Part shown: positions 358 to 7,552 of the stretch, one piece after another
Layout of the letters: each line of letters starts with the position of its first letter
How positions within the stretch are numbered: the stretch's first letter is position 1
DNA from: a bacterium
GTDB taxonomy: Bacteria; SZUA-182; DTGQ01
NCBI GenBank assembly: GCA_023512255.1
Contig: JAILZY010000131.1
Coordinates: 1-8,093, forward strand
Direction: 5' to 3'
Length of the DNA stretch: 8,093 nt
Notes under the pieces: generated by a model
What the model was told of the DNA's origin: nothing
The model's input: only the letters and a program-made list of their open reading frames with translations
Databases searched by the model: none
Translations under genes and position numbers: made by a program

Positions 358-385
358 CTACTTCTGCTCTCGATATACTACTTCT
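342..385. repeat. imperfect 22-bp tandem duplication across the leuA-like stop codon
   Basis: Two 22-bp units lie head to tail at 342-363 and 364-385. They share an exact 13-base core, CTGCTCTCGATAT, at 342-354 and 364-376, followed by similar CTACTT-type sequence. The right unit encodes the last residues of the leuA-like protein (around VVYREQK). The left unit spans the stop codon and the first bases after it. This looks like a replication-slippage duplication that has since drifted; no function is implied. Confidence 0.6.
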
Positions 386-1974
386 TCTTTGTTTACCAAC
401 TCTTGTCTGTTTTCCCCCGGCTGTCTCTTTTCTTGGGCCAGCTTTTCCACTAGCTTATTGATCCCATTTAGATAAGCGCGGACACTGGCTTCGACAATAT
501 CTGTAGATGATCCGTGTCCCAGAACCTTTTTCCCTTCCTTAGATACACTGACCAGCACCTCGGCCATAGCCGCGGCCCCGGAGGTAACTGCCTGAACAGT
601 ATAGTCATCGAGTTTGACCTGAAAATTGATAGCCTTATCAATAGCCTTGTATGCAGCATCAACGGGTCCGTCACCGAGGGCGGATTCCGTAACGGTCTCT
701 TCGGTTCCGTTTTCCTGCTTTTTGATTTTTACGGTCGCCATAGGAATAGCATGGGTTCCATTCATGACCTGCAGAAAAGTGAGGGTGTATTTTTCCGACA
801 AGTTGGGGACCTCATTTTCCATAATCGAAACAAGATCCTCATCGTAAATCATTTGTTTTCTATCGGCAATCTCCATAAATCTCCCATAAACCTTTTCCAG
901 TCTATCCTGGGAGAATGGTGGATACCCTAATTCTTTGAGCCGGTGCTTCAGTCCATGCCTTCCTGCCCTGGCAGTCAGAATGACCCGGCTTTGCGGAAAG
1001 CCGATATCTTCAGGGTTAATGGTTTCATAGGGAAGGCGATCTTTCATCATTCCATTAATATGGAGCCCGATATTATTGGTCAGGGCATTATTGCCTACAA
1101 TCGGTTTATTGCGAGGAATTGTAATACCAAAAAGATGAGCAACGGTGCGACTGGTCCTGTACAGCTCCTTGGGTTGAATCTGAAGCAGAAAACGAAAATA
1201 ATCCTTGTGAGCCGAAATTCCCATAACCACCTCTTCCAAAGATGCATTTCCAGCCCGAGGACCAATGCCATTGATTGAACATTCCACCTGCCGAGCACCG
1301 TTGACAAGACCAGCCAGGCTGTTAGCCACTGCCAGTCCAAGGTCATTATGGCAATGAACACTGAGAGTCGCCTGCCTGATATTAGGAACCCTTTCTCTGA
1401 TCCTGCTTATTAGACTGCCGTAGACCTCAGGTATGGCGTAGCCGATAGTATCAGGGATATTGACTGTGGTGGCGCCGGCCTCAATTACAGCCTGAAGAAT
1501 TGTAAACAGAAATTCCTGGTCGGCACGGGTGGCATCTTCAGCATAAAACTCCACATCTTCTGTGTATTGTTTGGCATGTTTTACCACCTCAACAGCTATC
1601 TTAAGTACTTCATCTTTGCTTTTGTACTGCTTGCGTTCAATATAGATATCGGAAACTCCAATGCCAGTATGAATTCGCTTTCTTTTGGCACCGGCAAGGG
1701 CCTGAGCACAGCGATCAATATCCTCCTGGCGAGCGCGGCTGAGAGCACAGATAACCGGGCCATCAATTTCCTGAGCGATCAGTCGAGCTGATTCAAAATC
1801 TCCTGGAGATGAGGCTGGTGAGCCTACTTCTAGGATATCTACCTTTAGGCGAGAAAGTTGCCTGGCTACCTCCAGTTTTTCTGAGGGAACCAAGGAGTTT
1901 CCAGTTGCCTGCTCTCCATCTCTTAACGTCGTGTCCAAGACAAATATCTTTTCCCTTTGATCTTTCGCGTCCAT
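358..1974 (-). CDS. leuA: 2-isopropylmalate synthase-like protein (LeuA family, divergent active site)
   Basis: This 538-residue protein belongs to the DRE-TIM metallolyases. The family condenses acetyl-CoA with a 2-keto acid; LeuA uses 2-ketoisovalerate in the first committed step of leucine synthesis in the cytosol. Residues about 11-280 form the TIM barrel, with DTTLRDGEQ at 14-22, HCH at 207-209 and the GN of RAGNASLEE at 242-243. Predicted metal ligands D14, H207, H209 and N243 are present. Residues about 395-508 form the LeuA allosteric/dimer domain (GDGPVDAAYKAID, then STDIVEAS). Length is normal for bacterial LeuA. I chose ATG at 1974 because AGGGAG lies 10 bases upstream; a TTG three codons earlier would sit almost on that site. 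Several conserved pocket residues differ from typical LeuA (S52, Y111, Y144, P239, N300, I302, I306, N307), so another keto-acid substrate is possible. The gene follows the lipid operon after 238 bases and has its own candidate promoter. The family call is firm; the exact reaction is less so. Confidence 0.85.
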   Translation of the reverse strand: MDAKDQREKIFVLDTTLRDGEQATGNSLVPSEKLEVARQLSRLKVDILEVGSPASSPGDFESARLIAQEIDGPVICALSRARQEDIDRCAQALAGAKRKRIHTGIGVSDIYIERKQYKSKDEVLKIAVEVVKHAKQYTEDVEFYAEDATRADQEFLFTILQAVIEAGATTVNIPDTIGYAIPEVYGSLISRIRERVPNIRQATLSVHCHNDLGLAVANSLAGLVNGARQVECSINGIGPRAGNASLEEVVMGISAHKDYFRFLLQIQPKELYRTSRTVAHLFGITIPRNKPIVGNNALTNNIGLHINGMMKDRLPYETINPEDIGFPQSRVILTARAGRHGLKHRLKELGYPPFSQDRLEKVYGRFMEIADRKQMIYDEDLVSIMENEVPNLSEKYTLTFLQVMNGTHAIPMATVKIKKQENGTEETVTESALGDGPVDAAYKAIDKAINFQVKLDDYTVQAVTSGAAAMAEVLVSVSKEGKKVLGHGSSTDIVEASVRAYLNGINKLVEKLAQEKRQPGENRQELVNKEEVVYREQK

Positions 1975-2068
1975 AGCTTGCAATCTCCCTGATTTTTATT
2001 TTACCCGGCTTTTTGTAAAAAAGAAGAATTTTTTATATCTTTTATAATAATAAGAGAGTGTCTTGTTT

Positions 2069-2212: not shown

Positions 2213-2791
2213 TTAGGCTATGGTCCAAACAACAGATCTCTGATTAGCAACAATAGAAATGATGTGATTTTGATACCAATAATGCTCGATATTCCAGATT
2301 TTATGGTCATAATTCAATACAAGATGTTTTTCATCAGGGATATCAATCACCTTACAGACCATAAAATCTCGAAGCCCTGCTCCCGTAGCTTTCGTCGCCG
2401 CCTCTTTGGCTGTCCAATAGCGGAAAAAAAGTATCCAGTCTGGCTCTGAAACGAGTTTCCATTCTTCATCAGTGGCTAGATATCTAAAGAGATATTTTTG
2501 CCCCCGCGGCAAAAACTCCTCTACATCAATGCCAACTCTCTCTTCGCTGACTACTGCGGCCACACATCGGGGTTTGTGGGATAAAGACCAGTAGATGCCA
2601 TTGGCAGGCAGGGGAGCTCCTCGCTCATCCTTGGCTAGGGGCTCAAGTAAGGTTACACCGCTTCTTTGGGCACTAAGAGCCAGCGCCTGCCGGGCGGTTT
2701 TCCTGAGCAGATCAACCATCTCGCGACCCGATCGTTGATTAGCTGCAGTATATGGAACTGATAGTATGACTGGATAAAGAGGTGTATTCAT
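2213..2791 (-). CDS. 4'-phosphopantetheinyl transferase, Sfp type
   Basis: This enzyme moves the 4'-phosphopantetheine arm of coenzyme A onto a serine of an acyl or peptidyl carrier protein, turning apo-ACP into holo-ACP in the cytosol. From ATG at 2791 the protein has 192 residues. The family signature appears in order: WSLSHKP at 68-74, VGIDVEE at 86-92, and FRYWTAKEAATKATGAGL from about 123. D89, E91 and E130 are the expected magnesium ligands, with K129 and K134 in the CoA-binding helix. The start is uncertain. The frame stays open upstream to a TTG at 2926, inside the preceding FabI-like gene, and would add 45 residues that look unlike the family. The ATG has only a weak AAGGG 14 bases upstream. 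It is the last gene of the Fab-like operon, which implies it serves the carrier protein of that pathway. It is too diverged to say whether it is AcpS-replacing or pathway-specific. Confidence 0.88.
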   Translation of the reverse strand: MNTPLYPVILSVPYTAANQRSGREMVDLLRKTARQALALSAQRSGVTLLEPLAKDERGAPLPANGIYWSLSHKPRCVAAVVSEERVGIDVEEFLPRGQKYLFRYLATDEEWKLVSEPDWILFFRYWTAKEAATKATGAGLRDFMVCKVIDIPDEKHLVLNYDHKIWNIEHYWYQNHIISIVANQRSVVWTIA

Positions 2792-2882
2792 GCCGCAACA
2801 AATTACCCTTATTCTTTTATCTTCAATTACTCTTTGTGGTAGCCAAGCTTTTTGAACAAGCTGGTAGTCAAGCTTGTGGACA

Positions 2883-3692
2883 TCACGGAAAATTCCGAAG
2901 AGCACGTTTAATGATACCTTTATCAAAGTAGTTTACTGACATTCCAGCATCGACGATTAGTGTCTGGGCATTGATGCCGCTTGATCGGCTACTTAATAGA
3001 AAAGCCACGACATTGGCTACCTCACGGGTAGCCAGGGCTTTTTTGCGTAAGGTTAGTTGTTCGGCAAAGAGGTAGGAGTCGATATATTCGGGAATGCCGG
3101 CTGAGGCTGAAGTTTTAAGAAGCCCAGCGCCTACGGCATTGAATCTGATACGGGAGAAGGTGCTGAATGATTTGGCCAGGAAGCAAACAGTAGAATCGAG
3201 AGCTGCCTTAACTGGTCCCATATAACCGTAGCTTTCCGCGGCCATGCGGGTGGTTGAAATGGACATGGTTACCACTGAGGCCTCCCGCTCAAGGAGAGAA
3301 CTGAAGGCTCTGGCAATATGAATCAGAGAATAGCAGGAAATATCAACTGCCTGTAAAAAGTCGCCTTTTGCCGTCTCATGAAAGGGTTTTACTCCCTGAC
3401 TGTAGTTGGCAAAGGCGATTGAGTGGACCAGACCGGCTAGCGGAGAGTGCTCCCGGCGGATTTCAGCAGCCAGACGTTCAATATCTCCCTCCCGTGCCAC
3501 GTCGCAGACATAGATTTGACTGCCTGCCGGAAGGAACTTGCAGGCAACTTCTTTAATCTCACGGGATTTGACCGCATATAGGACCTCAGCCTCGGCCTCT
3601 TTTAGTACCTGGCCTACATGGTAGGCTATACTCTTTCGATTGGCAACGCCAAAGACCAGGAATTTTTTCCCTTCCAGCTCTAAAAAACTCAT
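2883..3692 (-). CDS. FabI-like enoyl-ACP reductase (SDR superfamily) with altered catalytic motif
   Basis: This 269-residue protein most resembles FabI, which reduces trans-2-enoyl-ACP with NAD(P)H in the last step of each fatty-acid elongation round. FabI hallmarks are the N-terminal [13 protein letters not shown] (15-27), HSIAFA (90-95), Y155 and K162 spaced Y-x6-K, and a C-terminal segment like FabI substrate-loop and dimer regions ([21 protein letters not shown], about 230-250). The position of E. coli Tyr146 is isoleucine (I145) in [13 protein letters not shown], and the usual GPI after the substrate loop reads GLL. It could therefore act on unusual enoyl chains or as another SDR-type reductase. 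Its ATG follows directly on the fabZ stop (TGAATG), with GGAG about 7 bases upstream, so translation is probably coupled. It sits between fabZ and the phosphopantetheinyl transferase gene. Superfamily and FabI affinity are clear; the reaction is inferred. Confidence 0.82.
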
Positions 3693-4136
3693 TCACCCTC
3701 TCCCTTGTCCCTGAACCAATGTGCAGGAAAACTTAGCGGTAACAACTGTTTTCCCCGAAACAGCCACTTTCCCCTTGAGGAAATATACTCCTCCGAGCGT
3801 TTCGATCATCTCCACTTCGGTTTCCATGACATCGTCAGGCTTGATCATACTCCGGAATTTGGCATCCTGGATTCTGGTCAGCACCGGCACCCCGCCCTGA
3901 CCAGCGACAGAGCCGGTTTTTTTAGCGATCAGAATAGCTCCGCTCTGAAAGATGGATTCACAGATCAAAACTCCTGGCATAATTGGGTTGCCAGGGTAGT
4001 GCCCCTGAAAAAATGGGTCCTCTGCCCGTACCTTTTTGGTGGTCTTAATCCGATCTTCTGAAAGCTCACAAATGGCATCTACAAACAAGAAGGGATGGCG
4101 GTGAGGAATAGCCTGGTAAATCTCCTCAGAAATCAT
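3693..4136 (-). CDS. fabZ: 3-hydroxyacyl-ACP dehydratase, FabZ type
   Basis: This 147-residue hotdog-fold protein removes water from 3-hydroxyacyl-ACP to give trans-2-enoyl-ACP. The diagnostic segments are intact: IPHRHPFLFVD at 10-20, then FFQGHYPGNPIMPGVLICE at 42-60. H46 and E60 are the expected catalytic pair, and length is typical. An excellent GGAGG lies 9 bases before the ATG, within the 3' end of fabG. The gene starts 2 bases after the fabG stop and abuts the next gene, which argues for one transcript and coupled translation. In this setting it is likely a second, pathway-dedicated FabZ rather than the housekeeping copy, although the window alone cannot prove that another copy exists. 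Confidence 0.92.
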   Translation of the reverse strand: MISEEIYQAIPHRHPFLFVDAICELSEDRIKTTKKVRAEDPFFQGHYPGNPIMPGVLICESIFQSGAILIAKKTGSVAGQGGVPVLTRIQDAKFRSMIKPDDVMETEVEMIETLGGVYFLKGKVAVSGKTVVTAKFSCTLVQGQGRG

Positions 4137-4138
4137 GG

Positions 4139-4885
4139 TTACAATCCTCCAGTCACTTCAAGAGTTGCTCCGGTAATGTAGGAAGCCTCTTTTGAGGCCA
4201 AGAATAATACCGCCTGGGCCACCTCTCGGGCAGTCCCAAAACGCTTCAGGGGAATCTCTTCCCGATAGGCCCGCCGCCTTTCCTCTGAAAGGTCTTGAAT
4301 GAATTCTGTATCAATAAAGCCCGGAGAGACACAATTGGCAGTAATTCCCCGAGTGGCTACCTCTTTGGATAGAGACCTGGTCATGGCCACAAGACCTGCT
4401 TTAGAGGCTGCATAGTTGGCCTGTCCGGCGAATCCGAACTTTCCACTTGGAGAGGTAATGTTGATGATTCTTCCATACTGCTGGTTCATGAAATTGCGCA
4501 CGGCAAATTTGCACATATGATAAGCACCAGAAAGATTCACTTCGATCACAGCCTTCCAGTCCGATTCCTTCATCATGCCCAAAACCGCATCGCGGCGGAT
4601 TCCAGCATTGTTGACCAGAATATGAAAGTTCTGATACTTATCTTCGAGGTAGCGGTAGAATTTCTCCACCTGGCTATAGTCAGCCACATCCACTGGCTGA
4701 ATATCTATCTGGGGGGAGAATTGCTTGTTTTCAGCTAGGAACTGCTCAGCCGCGGCTTTATTGGTATGGTAGATGCCCACAATCCTGGCCCCGGAATACA
4801 AGAAAGCTTCGGCTATGCTCTTGCCAATTCCCCTAGTGGCACCGGAAATTACGGCAATCTGCCCTGAAAAATCAAACATATTCAC
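4139..4885 (-). CDS. fabG: 3-oxoacyl-ACP reductase, FabG type (SDR family)
   Basis: This classical short-chain dehydrogenase of 248 residues reduces 3-ketoacyl-ACP to 3-hydroxyacyl-ACP, probably with NADPH. Visible motifs are the Rossmann glycine motif SGATRGIG (14-21), NNAG (92-95), catalytic N118, S145, Y158 and K162 (NYAASK), and SPGFIDTEF after the active site. The C-terminus ends ITGATLEVTGGL, as in FabG. The chosen start is a GTG with GGAG 7 bases upstream. An ATG two codons later is possible but sits 13 bases from the same site. It lies 69 bases downstream of the FAD oxidoreductase gene and 2 bases upstream of fabZ, so it is the second gene of the operon. Family assignment is firm. Being dedicated to a special acyl chain is an inference from its neighbours. 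Confidence 0.92.
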   Translation of the reverse strand: MNMFDFSGQIAVISGATRGIGKSIAEAFLYSGARIVGIYHTNKAAAEQFLAENKQFSPQIDIQPVDVADYSQVEKFYRYLEDKYQNFHILVNNAGIRRDAVLGMMKESDWKAVIEVNLSGAYHMCKFAVRNFMNQQYGRIINITSPSGKFGFAGQANYAASKAGLVAMTRSLSKEVATRGITANCVSPGFIDTEFIQDLSEERRRAYREEIPLKRFGTAREVAQAVLFLASKEASYITGATLEVTGGL

Positions 4886-4928
4886 TTATTCGCTCCATTG
4901 ACCTAATTTTTCGATCAGCTCGTCTATT

Positions 4929-4962
4929 ATTTTATTGCTATCTTAATTTTATTGCTATCTTA
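4929..4962. repeat. perfect 17-bp tandem duplication at the oxidoreductase gene end
   Basis: Two exact copies of ATTTTATTGCTATCTTA lie head to tail at 4929-4945 and 4946-4962. The right copy contains the oxidoreductase stop codon (TAG, 4955-4957 on the minus strand) and its last codons. The left copy is in the 69-base spacer before fabG. This is a direct, sequence-perfect duplication, so probably recent slippage. It lengthens the intercistronic gap by 17 bases. Confidence 0.9.
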
Positions 4963-6376
4963 CTGCTTGCGCCCCACTCAGATACCTATCTACCTCGTGG
5001 GCGACAATCACCCCATAATTGGCCGCACCTAGCCAGCCAGACATGATAATCCCTACCGAGCCGGTGTGAAACAGCCCCTTGATTTGCTTAGGAAGGTCCA
5101 AACTCACTTTCAGCCCCTCGAATTTCGTTCCGAAAGAGGCGCCCTTGACATGAAGAGCATACCGCTGAAAGGTTCTGGGAGTAGCCGCTTCAGCATGATC
5201 GATCTTGTCCCGAACCCCTGGTAGGTACTTTTCCAGACAATGAATGGTGGCCTCGATCAGCTCCTCCTTGGCAGTGCGGTATTCGGCAGGTGAGAGGGCT
5301 ACCCAGTCATCGTAGCGAGCATTGGTTGAGGCTACGATGGTAAAGCGGTCTGAGCCGGGACGGATGGAGGGATAATAGAAGGAAAAGGTCCGGCTGGTGG
5401 TTCCTCTGCTTCGAAGCTCATTAGGATCGAATTTGGCTGCCTCTGAGGTAAAGAGAAGATCCCCAACGTAGTCGATGGTCTCACCTTTCTTAATTCCAAG
5501 ATACACCTGGCAGCTGCTGTTGTTGACCCGCACCTTGTTAGCCTGGTCGATAAATTCCTGGTCAAAGTGCTCATCTCCTGCCAGCTCATGAATGGTGGAC
5601 AGCAGATTGGCATTGGAGAGCACAGCCTTGCAGCGGATAATCTGGCCATTAGTTATCCGAACCGCAACCGCTTTGCGGTCATTGATTATGATTTTGTCTA
5701 CCAGGCATTTTAACCCAATATCCACACCGCTATTTTCAAGTGCGGCCCGCATCTGTCCGATCAGCTGGTCCGTGCCTCCCTGGAAGGTGAATACCCCCTT
5801 GCTCATAAAATTCGAAAACACTATACCATAGGTAATGGCCGGATCATCAAGATCAGAGCCATTGGCGTAGGTGATCGGCTCCATCAACATGCGCATCACA
5901 TCATCCCGGCCAGGGAAATACCTCTCAAATAATTCCCTGACGGTCATAGTCTGGTCATCAAAGAAATTCATGTTCGAGACGGTTTGAAAAAAGCTACTGA
6001 TTGTCTCATCGCTAATACCGAATCGCTCCTTGAGAATGCGGGTAAAATCCTCGGTATCAAAGGTTGTGGTCAGGGAAAATTGGGGATTATCAAAGCGAAT
6101 TTCCCTAAGCTGGATAATGGATCGGGCAATTTCCTCCGACCAGTACTTGCGACAGGTTTTAATCATGCCGACAGGAAAGCCGTGAAGAGAGACATCGAAG
6201 ATGTGTCCACCTCTGCGGGTAAACCAGGTGGCCAATCCGCCTAGTTTATCATGCTGCTCAAGGAGCAGTACAGAATATCCACACCTGGCCAGGCGATGCG
6301 CGGCGGTAAGCCCGGCCAGGCCGCTGCCAATGACAATGACATCGTATTCTGTCCTGTGACTGCTAACGGGGTTTAT
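4955..6376 (-). CDS. FAD-dependent phytoene-desaturase-like oxidoreductase (NAD(P)/FAD family), apparent ATA start
   Basis: The protein belongs to the FAD-binding amine-oxidase/phytoene desaturase (CrtI-like and RetSat-like) superfamily, whose members desaturate, isomerise or saturate isoprenoid or polyene chains. Read from an ATA at 6374-6376 it has 473 residues, close to the family length. An N-terminal Rossmann motif ([10 protein letters not shown], 13-22) is followed by the ADP-ribose-binding acidic residue E40 and KLGG at 44-47. The C-terminus carries a FAD-contact segment near 434-455 (FHTGSVG, then [10 protein letters not shown]). That segment differs from the PGGG-type motif of true CrtI, so carotenoid chemistry is not implied. 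No ATG, GTG or TTG exists in frame upstream of the GSGLAG motif, because an in-frame TGA lies at 6389-6391. The ATA is preceded by GAGGAG (6385-6390) at a perfect 8-base distance. It is the first gene of an operon with fabG, fabZ, the FabI-like gene and the phosphopantetheinyl transferase gene. Substrate is unknown; a polyunsaturated acyl chain fits the context. Confidence 0.88.
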
Positions 6377-6527: not shown

Positions 6528-6571
6528 GTTAAAGATAAAATTTATATCTTAGGGCTTAAAGGCTTGTGCTC

Positions 6572-7552
6572 ATGGGAAAAGATGAATATCTAATCATCAA
6601 ATCAAAGGTCAATCTCATTCGAGAGTTTCAACGCAAACGAAAATATGTAGAGGCTGAGAAGGAAATCCAGGATGCACTGAGGAAACATCCTGATAATGGA
6701 CTGTTGCTGAATTGTTTGGCCGAGGTTTATGTGCGTCAAAAAAATTACCGAGAAGCTAGCCTTATCCTGGAGCGAAGGCTACGGTCCAATCCAAGGGATT
6801 TTCAGGCCCTGGCTTTGACCGGAGAGCTTATGGCTCAGCAGGGGCGTTATCAGGATTCCCTACCGTACTTCGAGCAGGCCCTTAGCCTTAAAGAGAGTAG
6901 CTATCTATACTCTCAGCTCGTGCGAGCACTGACTCAGGCTGGCCAGGTGGAGAAAGCACTGAATGTGGTCAACACTGCCCTGGAAGCCTACCCTATGGAT
7001 GCTTATCTATTGGAGGAAAAAGGGAAAATACTCAGAAAATTGAAGAAATTTTCTGAGGCAGCCGAAGCTTACGAAAAAGTTCTGAAAGCCGATCCTGACG
7101 ACTCCTTTGCCTACAAAGAGTATATTCGCCTCAAGAGCTCAGGCCAAAGTAATGAAGAGCTCATCAGAGAATTGAAGGCCATTTTAAAGGTCCCTAGCCG
7201 AGCCAGCAATCCTTATCTTCATACCCTGCTTGGCGACACCTACAAGGCAGAGCGAAAATATGAGGCGGCCGCGCTGGCCTATCAGCAGGCCTTAAAGCTT
7301 GCTCCCGATAACTACTATGTGCTTGGTCATCTTGGCTTTTGCTACTTGAAACTGCAAAGATATTCCGAAGCCCAGGCTGTCTTGCGGCTCCCTTTTATCC
7401 ATGATCCGATGAATGAATATCTGCGCTCGGCTCTCATCTCAGCCTATCGGCTAAGCGGCAATATTGCCGGTTTGATTGAAACCCTTGAGGAAGCGCTCCG
7501 CAAACACCCAAGGGCCTATCCCCTAATTAGCATCCTGAAATCCTTACGGTAA
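6572..7552 (+). CDS. tetratricopeptide-repeat (TPR) protein
   Basis: This 326-residue protein consists almost entirely of about nine tandem 34-residue TPR units, which form a superhelix that binds other proteins. Typical units are NYREASLILERRLRSNPRD, RYQDSLPYFEQALSLKES, KFSEAAEAYEKVLKADPDD and KYEAAALAYQQALKLAPDN, each with the usual alanine, tyrosine and terminal proline positions. There is no signal peptide, membrane segment or catalytic domain, so a cytoplasmic scaffold role is most likely. I prefer ATG at 6572 because AAGG lies 9 bases upstream; a GTG at 6566 would be only about 3 bases from it. The gene is divergent from the lipid operon, which may mean shared regulation but proves no link. 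The unit near residues 165-200 is degenerate and slightly longer. No specific function can be assigned. Confidence 0.9.
   Translation: MGKDEYLIIKSKVNLIREFQRKRKYVEAEKEIQDALRKHPDNGLLLNCLAEVYVRQKNYREASLILERRLRSNPRDFQALALTGELMAQQGRYQDSLPYFEQALSLKESSYLYSQLVRALTQAGQVEKALNVVNTALEAYPMDAYLLEEKGKILRKLKKFSEAAEAYEKVLKADPDDSFAYKEYIRLKSSGQSNEELIRELKAILKVPSRASNPYLHTLLGDTYKAERKYEAAALAYQQALKLAPDNYYVLGHLGFCYLKLQRYSEAQAVLRLPFIHDPMNEYLRSALISAYRLSGNIAGLIETLEEALRKHPRAYPLISILKSLR

Follow-up and report, generated by a model that had tools for sequence, protein, structure and literature searches.

A split set of type II fatty acid synthase genes with two CrtI-like flavoproteins is linked to oleABCD and probably feeds OleA in place of Pfa

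A known route to polyunsaturated hydrocarbons in bacteria, found in Shewanella, Photobacterium and Geobacter bemidjiensis, combines the polyunsaturated fatty acid (PUFA) synthase Pfa with OleABCD (PMC6463001, PMC3098273, PMC4882568). In Shewanella, Pfa supplies OleA (PMC6463001), and trans-2,2-cis and trans-2,3-cis isomerisations are attributed to the FabA-like dehydratase domains of Pfa (PMC4882568). Rattray et al. 2009 (PMC2649909) describe C31:8 and C31:9 hydrocarbons in Desulfotalea psychrophila, which has no polyketide synthase (PKS)-type PUFA synthase; they report three CrtI-like genes, among them the consecutively numbered DP2405 and DP2406, and propose a novel anaerobic PUFA pathway with CrtI and type II fatty acid synthase (FAS II) genes. 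Here we examine an 8,093-base stretch (the window), which is the entire contig JAILZY010000131.1 (C151) of a 3.83-Mb, 172-contig bacterial genome. It carries a five-gene operon of Fab-type enzymes and a CrtI-like flavoprotein, DES1. Together with genes on a second contig of this genome (C61), the operon probably forms a split type II polyunsaturated acyl-acyl carrier protein (ACP) synthase that supplies OleA and takes the place of Pfa.

Re-reading the frames upheld the five co-directional genes and spacings described in an earlier note on the window. On the minus strand lie DES1 (4955..6376), a CrtI/CrtD/CRTISO-type flavoprotein that binds flavin adenine dinucleotide (FAD); FabG, a 3-ketoacyl-ACP reductase (KR; 4139..4885); FabZ, a 3-hydroxyacyl-ACP dehydratase (DH; 3693..4136); a FabI-like enoyl-ACP reductase (ENR; 2883..3692); and a 4′-phosphopantetheinyl transferase (PPTase; 2213..2791). 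The gaps are 69 bases between DES1 and FabG and 2 between FabG and FabZ; FabZ abuts the FabI-like gene, and the PPTase comes last, with its stop at 2213. Pfam supported the families, matching the proteins in this order to Amino_oxidase (PF01593, 66 bits), adh_short_C2, FabA-like, adh_short_C2 and ACPS (PF01648, 52 bits). NCBIfam assigned the three Fab proteins to their own families with scores mostly below the equivalog cut-offs: 283 bits (cut-off 298) for FabG with TIGR01830, 127 (113) and 124.5 (155) for FabZ with NF000582 and TIGR01750, and 179 (362) for the FabI-like protein with NF004748.

Two start positions were amended. DES1 has no ATG, GTG or TTG ahead of its FAD-binding GxGxxG motif and likely starts at ATA (AUA), positions 6376-6374, after AGGAGA, which would give a protein of about 473 amino acids; the 83%-identical DES1 gene of a same-genus genome (G001) keeps the same ATA, and a genome of the host family (G002) has ATG. 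For the PPTase, an ATG near 2791 is more likely than the TTG at 2926 that opens the longest frame, because its relatives are about 190-225 amino acids long. Catalytic residues are retained: S145, Y158, K162 and N117 of FabG show at least 97% conservation across 70 relatives, H46 and E60 of FabZ are conserved, as are Y155 and K162 of the FabI-like protein, and the PPTase motifs GID-E and W-TAKEA are conserved across 25 relatives. The FabI-like clade carries Ile at the site matching E. coli FabI Tyr146.

As the earlier note stated, the window lacks a ketosynthase (KS) and an ACP, but it is one whole contig, and we therefore sought both elsewhere in the genome. Of the four ketosynthase matches found, two fall within large PKS frames on C18, one is the housekeeping FabF on C8, and the fourth is a FabF-like KS on C61. 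There, one strand carries DES2, a second CrtI-like flavoprotein, followed by ACP, KS, OleD, OleC, OleB and OleA, placing the expected condensing enzyme and carrier in the same genome. The KS keeps Cys164, His302 and His338, and the ACP keeps Ser40. OleA matched NF006720 (457 bits, cut-off 285); OleC matched the fatty acid CoA ligase family NF006754 (724, cut-off 478) and the olefin beta-lactone synthetase NF045786 (617, cut-off 900); OleD matched NF042422 (375, cut-off 580); and OleB matched the haloalkane-dehalogenase family (152, cut-off 241). Homologues of oleA, oleB, oleC and oleD are thus all present together in this genome. Cys123, His279, Asn309 and Glu97 of OleA are invariant in 18 homologues; we take the first three to be the catalytic Cys, His and Asn, and Glu97 to be the condensation Glu. 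A title cited in PMC7064751 reports OleA Glu117 as key to condensation.

We compared synteny at 80 GTDB loci and in several same-family genomes, and found that the operon order recurs in many phyla. Over 82 loci, DES1 adjoined FabG 60 times, FabG adjoined FabZ 60 times and FabZ adjoined FabI 63 times, and the median gaps were 11, -1 and 2 bases, respectively; ENR adjoined the PPTase 24 times. Because these adjacencies recur with near-zero median gaps, the arrangement in the window is not due to chance. The two halves are joined elsewhere: Chloroflexota, Nitrospinota, Nitrospirota and Desulfobacterota have an uninterrupted KS-ACP-DES2-DES1-KR-DH-ENR series, which in Chloroflexota is preceded by an OleA homologue and followed by the PPTase. 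In the host family, the cluster lies in two pieces on separate contigs, DES1-KR-DH-ENR-PPTase and OleABCD-KS-ACP-DES2. In G002 both pieces are well within contigs of 44 and 46 kb, so the split is more than a broken assembly. The oleABCD genes follow the KS-to-ENR series in loci L086, L097 and L180-L184 and are interleaved with it in L179; in the Desulfobacterota loci L180-L184 the order is KS-ACP-DES2-DES1-KR-DH-ENR-OleA-OleB-OleC-OleD, with at most 1-2 small intervening frames. Thirteen Bdellovibrionota loci hold oleDCBA genes, oleC included, in the same stretch as DES1. Pairwise distances of the cluster proteins correlate, with r mostly 0.73-0.94 (lowest 0.63, KS-KR) and a contribution from organism relatedness. 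Dehalococcoidia loci (L041-L060 and others) keep an OleA homologue with at most 59% identity to the host OleA; their downstream neighbours include genes for a condensation-domain protein, a DUF362 protein or FabD.

OleC, reported previously in the abundant marine group Nitrospinota (PMC10176705), co-occurs with DES1. At a threshold of E<1e-150, OleC was found in 17 of 17 tested DES1 genomes from Nitrospinota, Nitrospirota, deltaproteobacterial lineages, Bdellovibrionota, Planctomycetota (G083 and G085) and the ADurb.Bin243 lineage; in the Planctomycetota DES1 genome bin1449 the match was weak (118 bits). Among 297 sampled Desulfobacterota, 16 carried DES1, 31 carried OleC and 11 carried both (Fisher p=8e-9). 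PfaA-type synthases (E<1e-160) were present in 16 of the 20 Desulfobacterota genomes with OleC but not DES1, and in none of the 11 with both (p=1.6e-5). DES1 and Pfa are therefore nearly complementary in this phylum.

Polyunsaturated chains require double bonds that escape reduction. In the split synthase that we propose, the PPTase would activate the cluster's own ACP, on which the KS would elongate the chain. FabG would reduce, FabZ would dehydrate to trans-2-enoyl-ACP and the FabI-like enzyme would reduce selectively, and KS, KR, DH and ENR could run a full elongation cycle. Given a FabZ-type dehydratase and a pair of unequal CrtI-like flavoproteins, we assign DES1 and DES2 candidate roles as isomerases or dehydrogenases. 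This pair probably introduces or isomerises the double bonds that would be retained. By analogy with the Pfa FabA-like dehydratases, one could carry out trans-2 to cis-3 and the other trans-2 to cis-2 isomerisation, or the chemistry could instead be a flavin-dependent dehydrogenation. Next, OleA would join two polyunsaturated chains head to head, OleD would reduce, OleC would lactonise and OleB would decarboxylate, giving a C31:9-type long-chain polyunsaturated hydrocarbon. The C31:8 and C31:9 hydrocarbons of D. psychrophila suggest this product class. The earlier note expected an unusual lipid or polyene; the oleABCD link, which lies outside the window, points to long hydrocarbons as the more likely product class. 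More tentatively, we suggest that this is a widespread, unnamed, oxygen-independent polyunsaturated synthase built from discrete FAS II proteins, in which the CrtI-like pair replaces the FabA-type isomerisations, and that it feeds OleA in at least five phyla and explains the polyunsaturated hydrocarbons of bacteria lacking Pfa, such as Desulfotalea.

The flavoproteins score far below the cut-offs of the described carotenoid families. The best NCBIfam match of DES1 was carotenoid isomerase TIGR02730, at 124 bits against a cut-off of 587, and its scores with carotenoid desaturase-type (CrtI/CrtD) models were 101-124 bits against cut-offs of 238-587. DES1 relatives form one clade with 100% support in the Shimodaira-Hasegawa-like approximate likelihood ratio test (SH-aLRT). 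Predicted models of DES1 and DES2 (pLDDT, the predicted local distance difference test, about 90 each) both best matched the fold of the gamma-carotenoid desaturase 4rep, with Z 33.6 for DES1 (root-mean-square deviation 3.1, 436 aligned) and Z 30.9 for DES2. The P. acnes polyenoic fatty acid isomerase 2b9w matched at Z 24.6 and 23.8, respectively. Since enzymes of both types are matched, sequence and fold do not settle between desaturase and isomerase. The Desulfobacterota genome G169 carries three DES1 copies (L174-L176), two of them isolated from Fab genes.

Several observations weigh against a synthase that feeds OleA. Genomes with this exact cluster have no known product, and DP2405 and DP2406 are no more than candidate counterparts of DES1 and DES2. 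The OleC search was positive in none of eight Dehalococcoidia DES1 genomes, and OleC was not found in one Auribacterota DES1 genome or in 5 of the 16 Desulfobacterota DES1 genomes (G088, G096, G133, G169 and G273). With OleC missing from several DES1 genomes, Ole is therefore not the sole outlet. Judging from gene content, the Dehalococcoidia product must differ from an OleABCD hydrocarbon, since an OleA homologue is kept without OleC, and is likely a ketone or other compound. The Fisher tests treat genomes as independent, ignoring shared ancestry. The host family (G000-G003) is exceptional in having both DES1 and a Pfa-like PKS, with Ole genes also in G000-G002. The host PKS on C18 scores 848 bits against a PfaA cut-off of 1010 (1956 bits in G002) and could feed Ole instead. 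It comprises an NMO-KS-AT-KR-PS-DH protein (2983 amino acids) and a KS-AT-PS-DH protein (1992 amino acids) adjoining a phosphodiesterase gene (L130, 2114-17036); a Pfam scan of this PKS detected no FabA-type dehydratase domains. The FabI-like enzyme, the single FabI homologue found in the genome, may also serve housekeeping synthesis.

The genomes with DES1 but no OleC, the Dehalococcoidia clusters and the host PKS favour an alternative that we consider rather unlikely: a dedicated polyunsaturated or polyene acyl synthase that mainly makes a membrane lipid, a ketone or another compound, with Ole as an optional outlet and with ordinary fatty acids or the Pfa-like PKS perhaps supplying Ole in the host. 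However, KS-ACP-DES2 directly adjoins oleABCD in the host and its family, and the strong co-occurrence with OleC and complementarity with Pfa likewise argue for a synthase that feeds OleA.

Could the operon instead belong to housekeeping FAS II, with a carotenoid-type desaturase that has nothing to do with it? The single FabI homologue fits such a view, but we regard it as very improbable. A second, canonical fabG lies in a plsX-fabH-fabD-fabG-acp-fabF operon on C8, and a second, canonical fabZ adjoins lpxA on C65; both copies in the window are divergent, and they stand in the same order with DES1 across phyla. The earlier note had asked whether these were the genome's only FabG, FabZ and FabI copies, which holds for the FabI-like gene alone. 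A housekeeping role is thus rejected for the window FabG and FabZ, but not for the FabI-like protein. These distinct copies, the synteny over phyla and the KS and ACP on C61 support the dedicated pathway that the earlier note proposed. Only two FabA/FabZ-family proteins were found in the host genome, both matching FabZ models. As the genome has no second FabI homologue, enoyl reduction in the host housekeeping FAS II may be unusual. The housekeeping operon on C8 (L222, 105-10395) also holds acyl-CoA dehydrogenase and EtfB/EtfA genes.

We found no support for the link to ladderane synthesis that the earlier note had raised. We chose 24 probable anammox genomes by PF18582 matches in frames of about 800-850 amino acids (hydrazine-synthase-like); PF18582 matches many other Planctomycetota, and the choice rests on frame length and, in those fetched, on an ACP-FabZ-FabF-FabF'-CrtI-radical-SAM cluster. 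No DES1 orthologue was found in these 24 genomes (the best score was 108 bits, while true members reach about 700 or more). Their CrtI-like proteins form a separate clade (100% SH-aLRT) encoded in ACP-FabZ-FabF-FabF'-CrtI-radical-SAM/B12 clusters, with the radical-SAM gene seen in L215; the same arrangement is reported for kuste3603-3608 (PMC4790861). No radical-SAM gene was detected among the window genes, the C61 cluster genes and ten recurrent neighbours scanned, the part of the host genome that was searched. Membership in the ladderane clusters is rejected on both counts, the CrtI-like gene and the radical-SAM gene. Although anammox-type clusters likewise combine ACP, FabZ, FabF, a CrtI-like protein and more genes (PMC4790861, PMC2649909), a pathway in which the flavoprotein and Fab enzymes build an all-trans polyene for cyclisation to ladderanes is the least probable reading, given these differences and the undetectable ladderanes that the latter paper reports for D. 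psychrophila, which has related clusters.

Beside the operon, the window holds leuA (358-1983, minus strand), which follows the PPTase on the same strand, and a divergent TPR gene (6566-7552).

In a literature search that mostly covered papers outside subscription, only Rattray 2009 and Javidpour 2016 were relevant to a link between Ole, CrtI-like genes and PUFA. Neither OleABCD nor hydrocarbons fed by Pfa are new, and the proposal of an anaerobic CrtI/FAS II route to polyunsaturated chains dates from 2009. The new elements, as far as searched, are a defined set of genes, the finding that it is linked to oleABCD and complements Pfa in Desulfobacterota, its occurrence in many phyla, and its distinction from the ladderane genes, for which it could be mistaken. 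The cluster offers a concrete, testable gene set for a pathway that Rattray et al. could only suggest. It suggests an acyl source paired with Ole where Pfa is absent, and points to a possible flavin-based, oxygen-free making of polyunsaturated chains. Such a split assembly line could explain polyunsaturated products in bacteria without a known PUFA synthase, and is relevant to abundant marine groups such as Nitrospinota.

How does this system compare with those described? DES1 and DES2 share their fold and FAD domain with CrtI, CrtD, CRTISO and the P. acnes isomerase, but differ from them in having only about 13-18% identity, scores far below the family cut-offs and a place inside acyl-ACP gene clusters. 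Like the D. psychrophila and anammox clusters described by Rattray et al. (PMC2649909), the system joins FAS II genes to CrtI-like flavoproteins. It differs in its own flavoprotein clades, in the lack of a radical-SAM gene among those scanned and in its linkage to oleABCD, which the text consulted there does not mention; FabI lies inside the window cluster, whereas the same text places it elsewhere in the genome in both organisms. With Pfa plus OleABCD, it shares OleABCD as outlet, the conserved OleA catalytic residues, an association with a PPTase and a presumed supply of polyunsaturated acyl-ACP to OleA. Where Pfa uses the multidomain PfaA-D, including a KS-MAT-ACPn-KR PfaA, this cluster uses separate, small, single-domain FAS-II-like proteins. 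FabA-like dehydratase/isomerase domains, present in Pfa, were not found in the cluster, which instead has a FabZ-type dehydratase and two CrtI-like flavoproteins.

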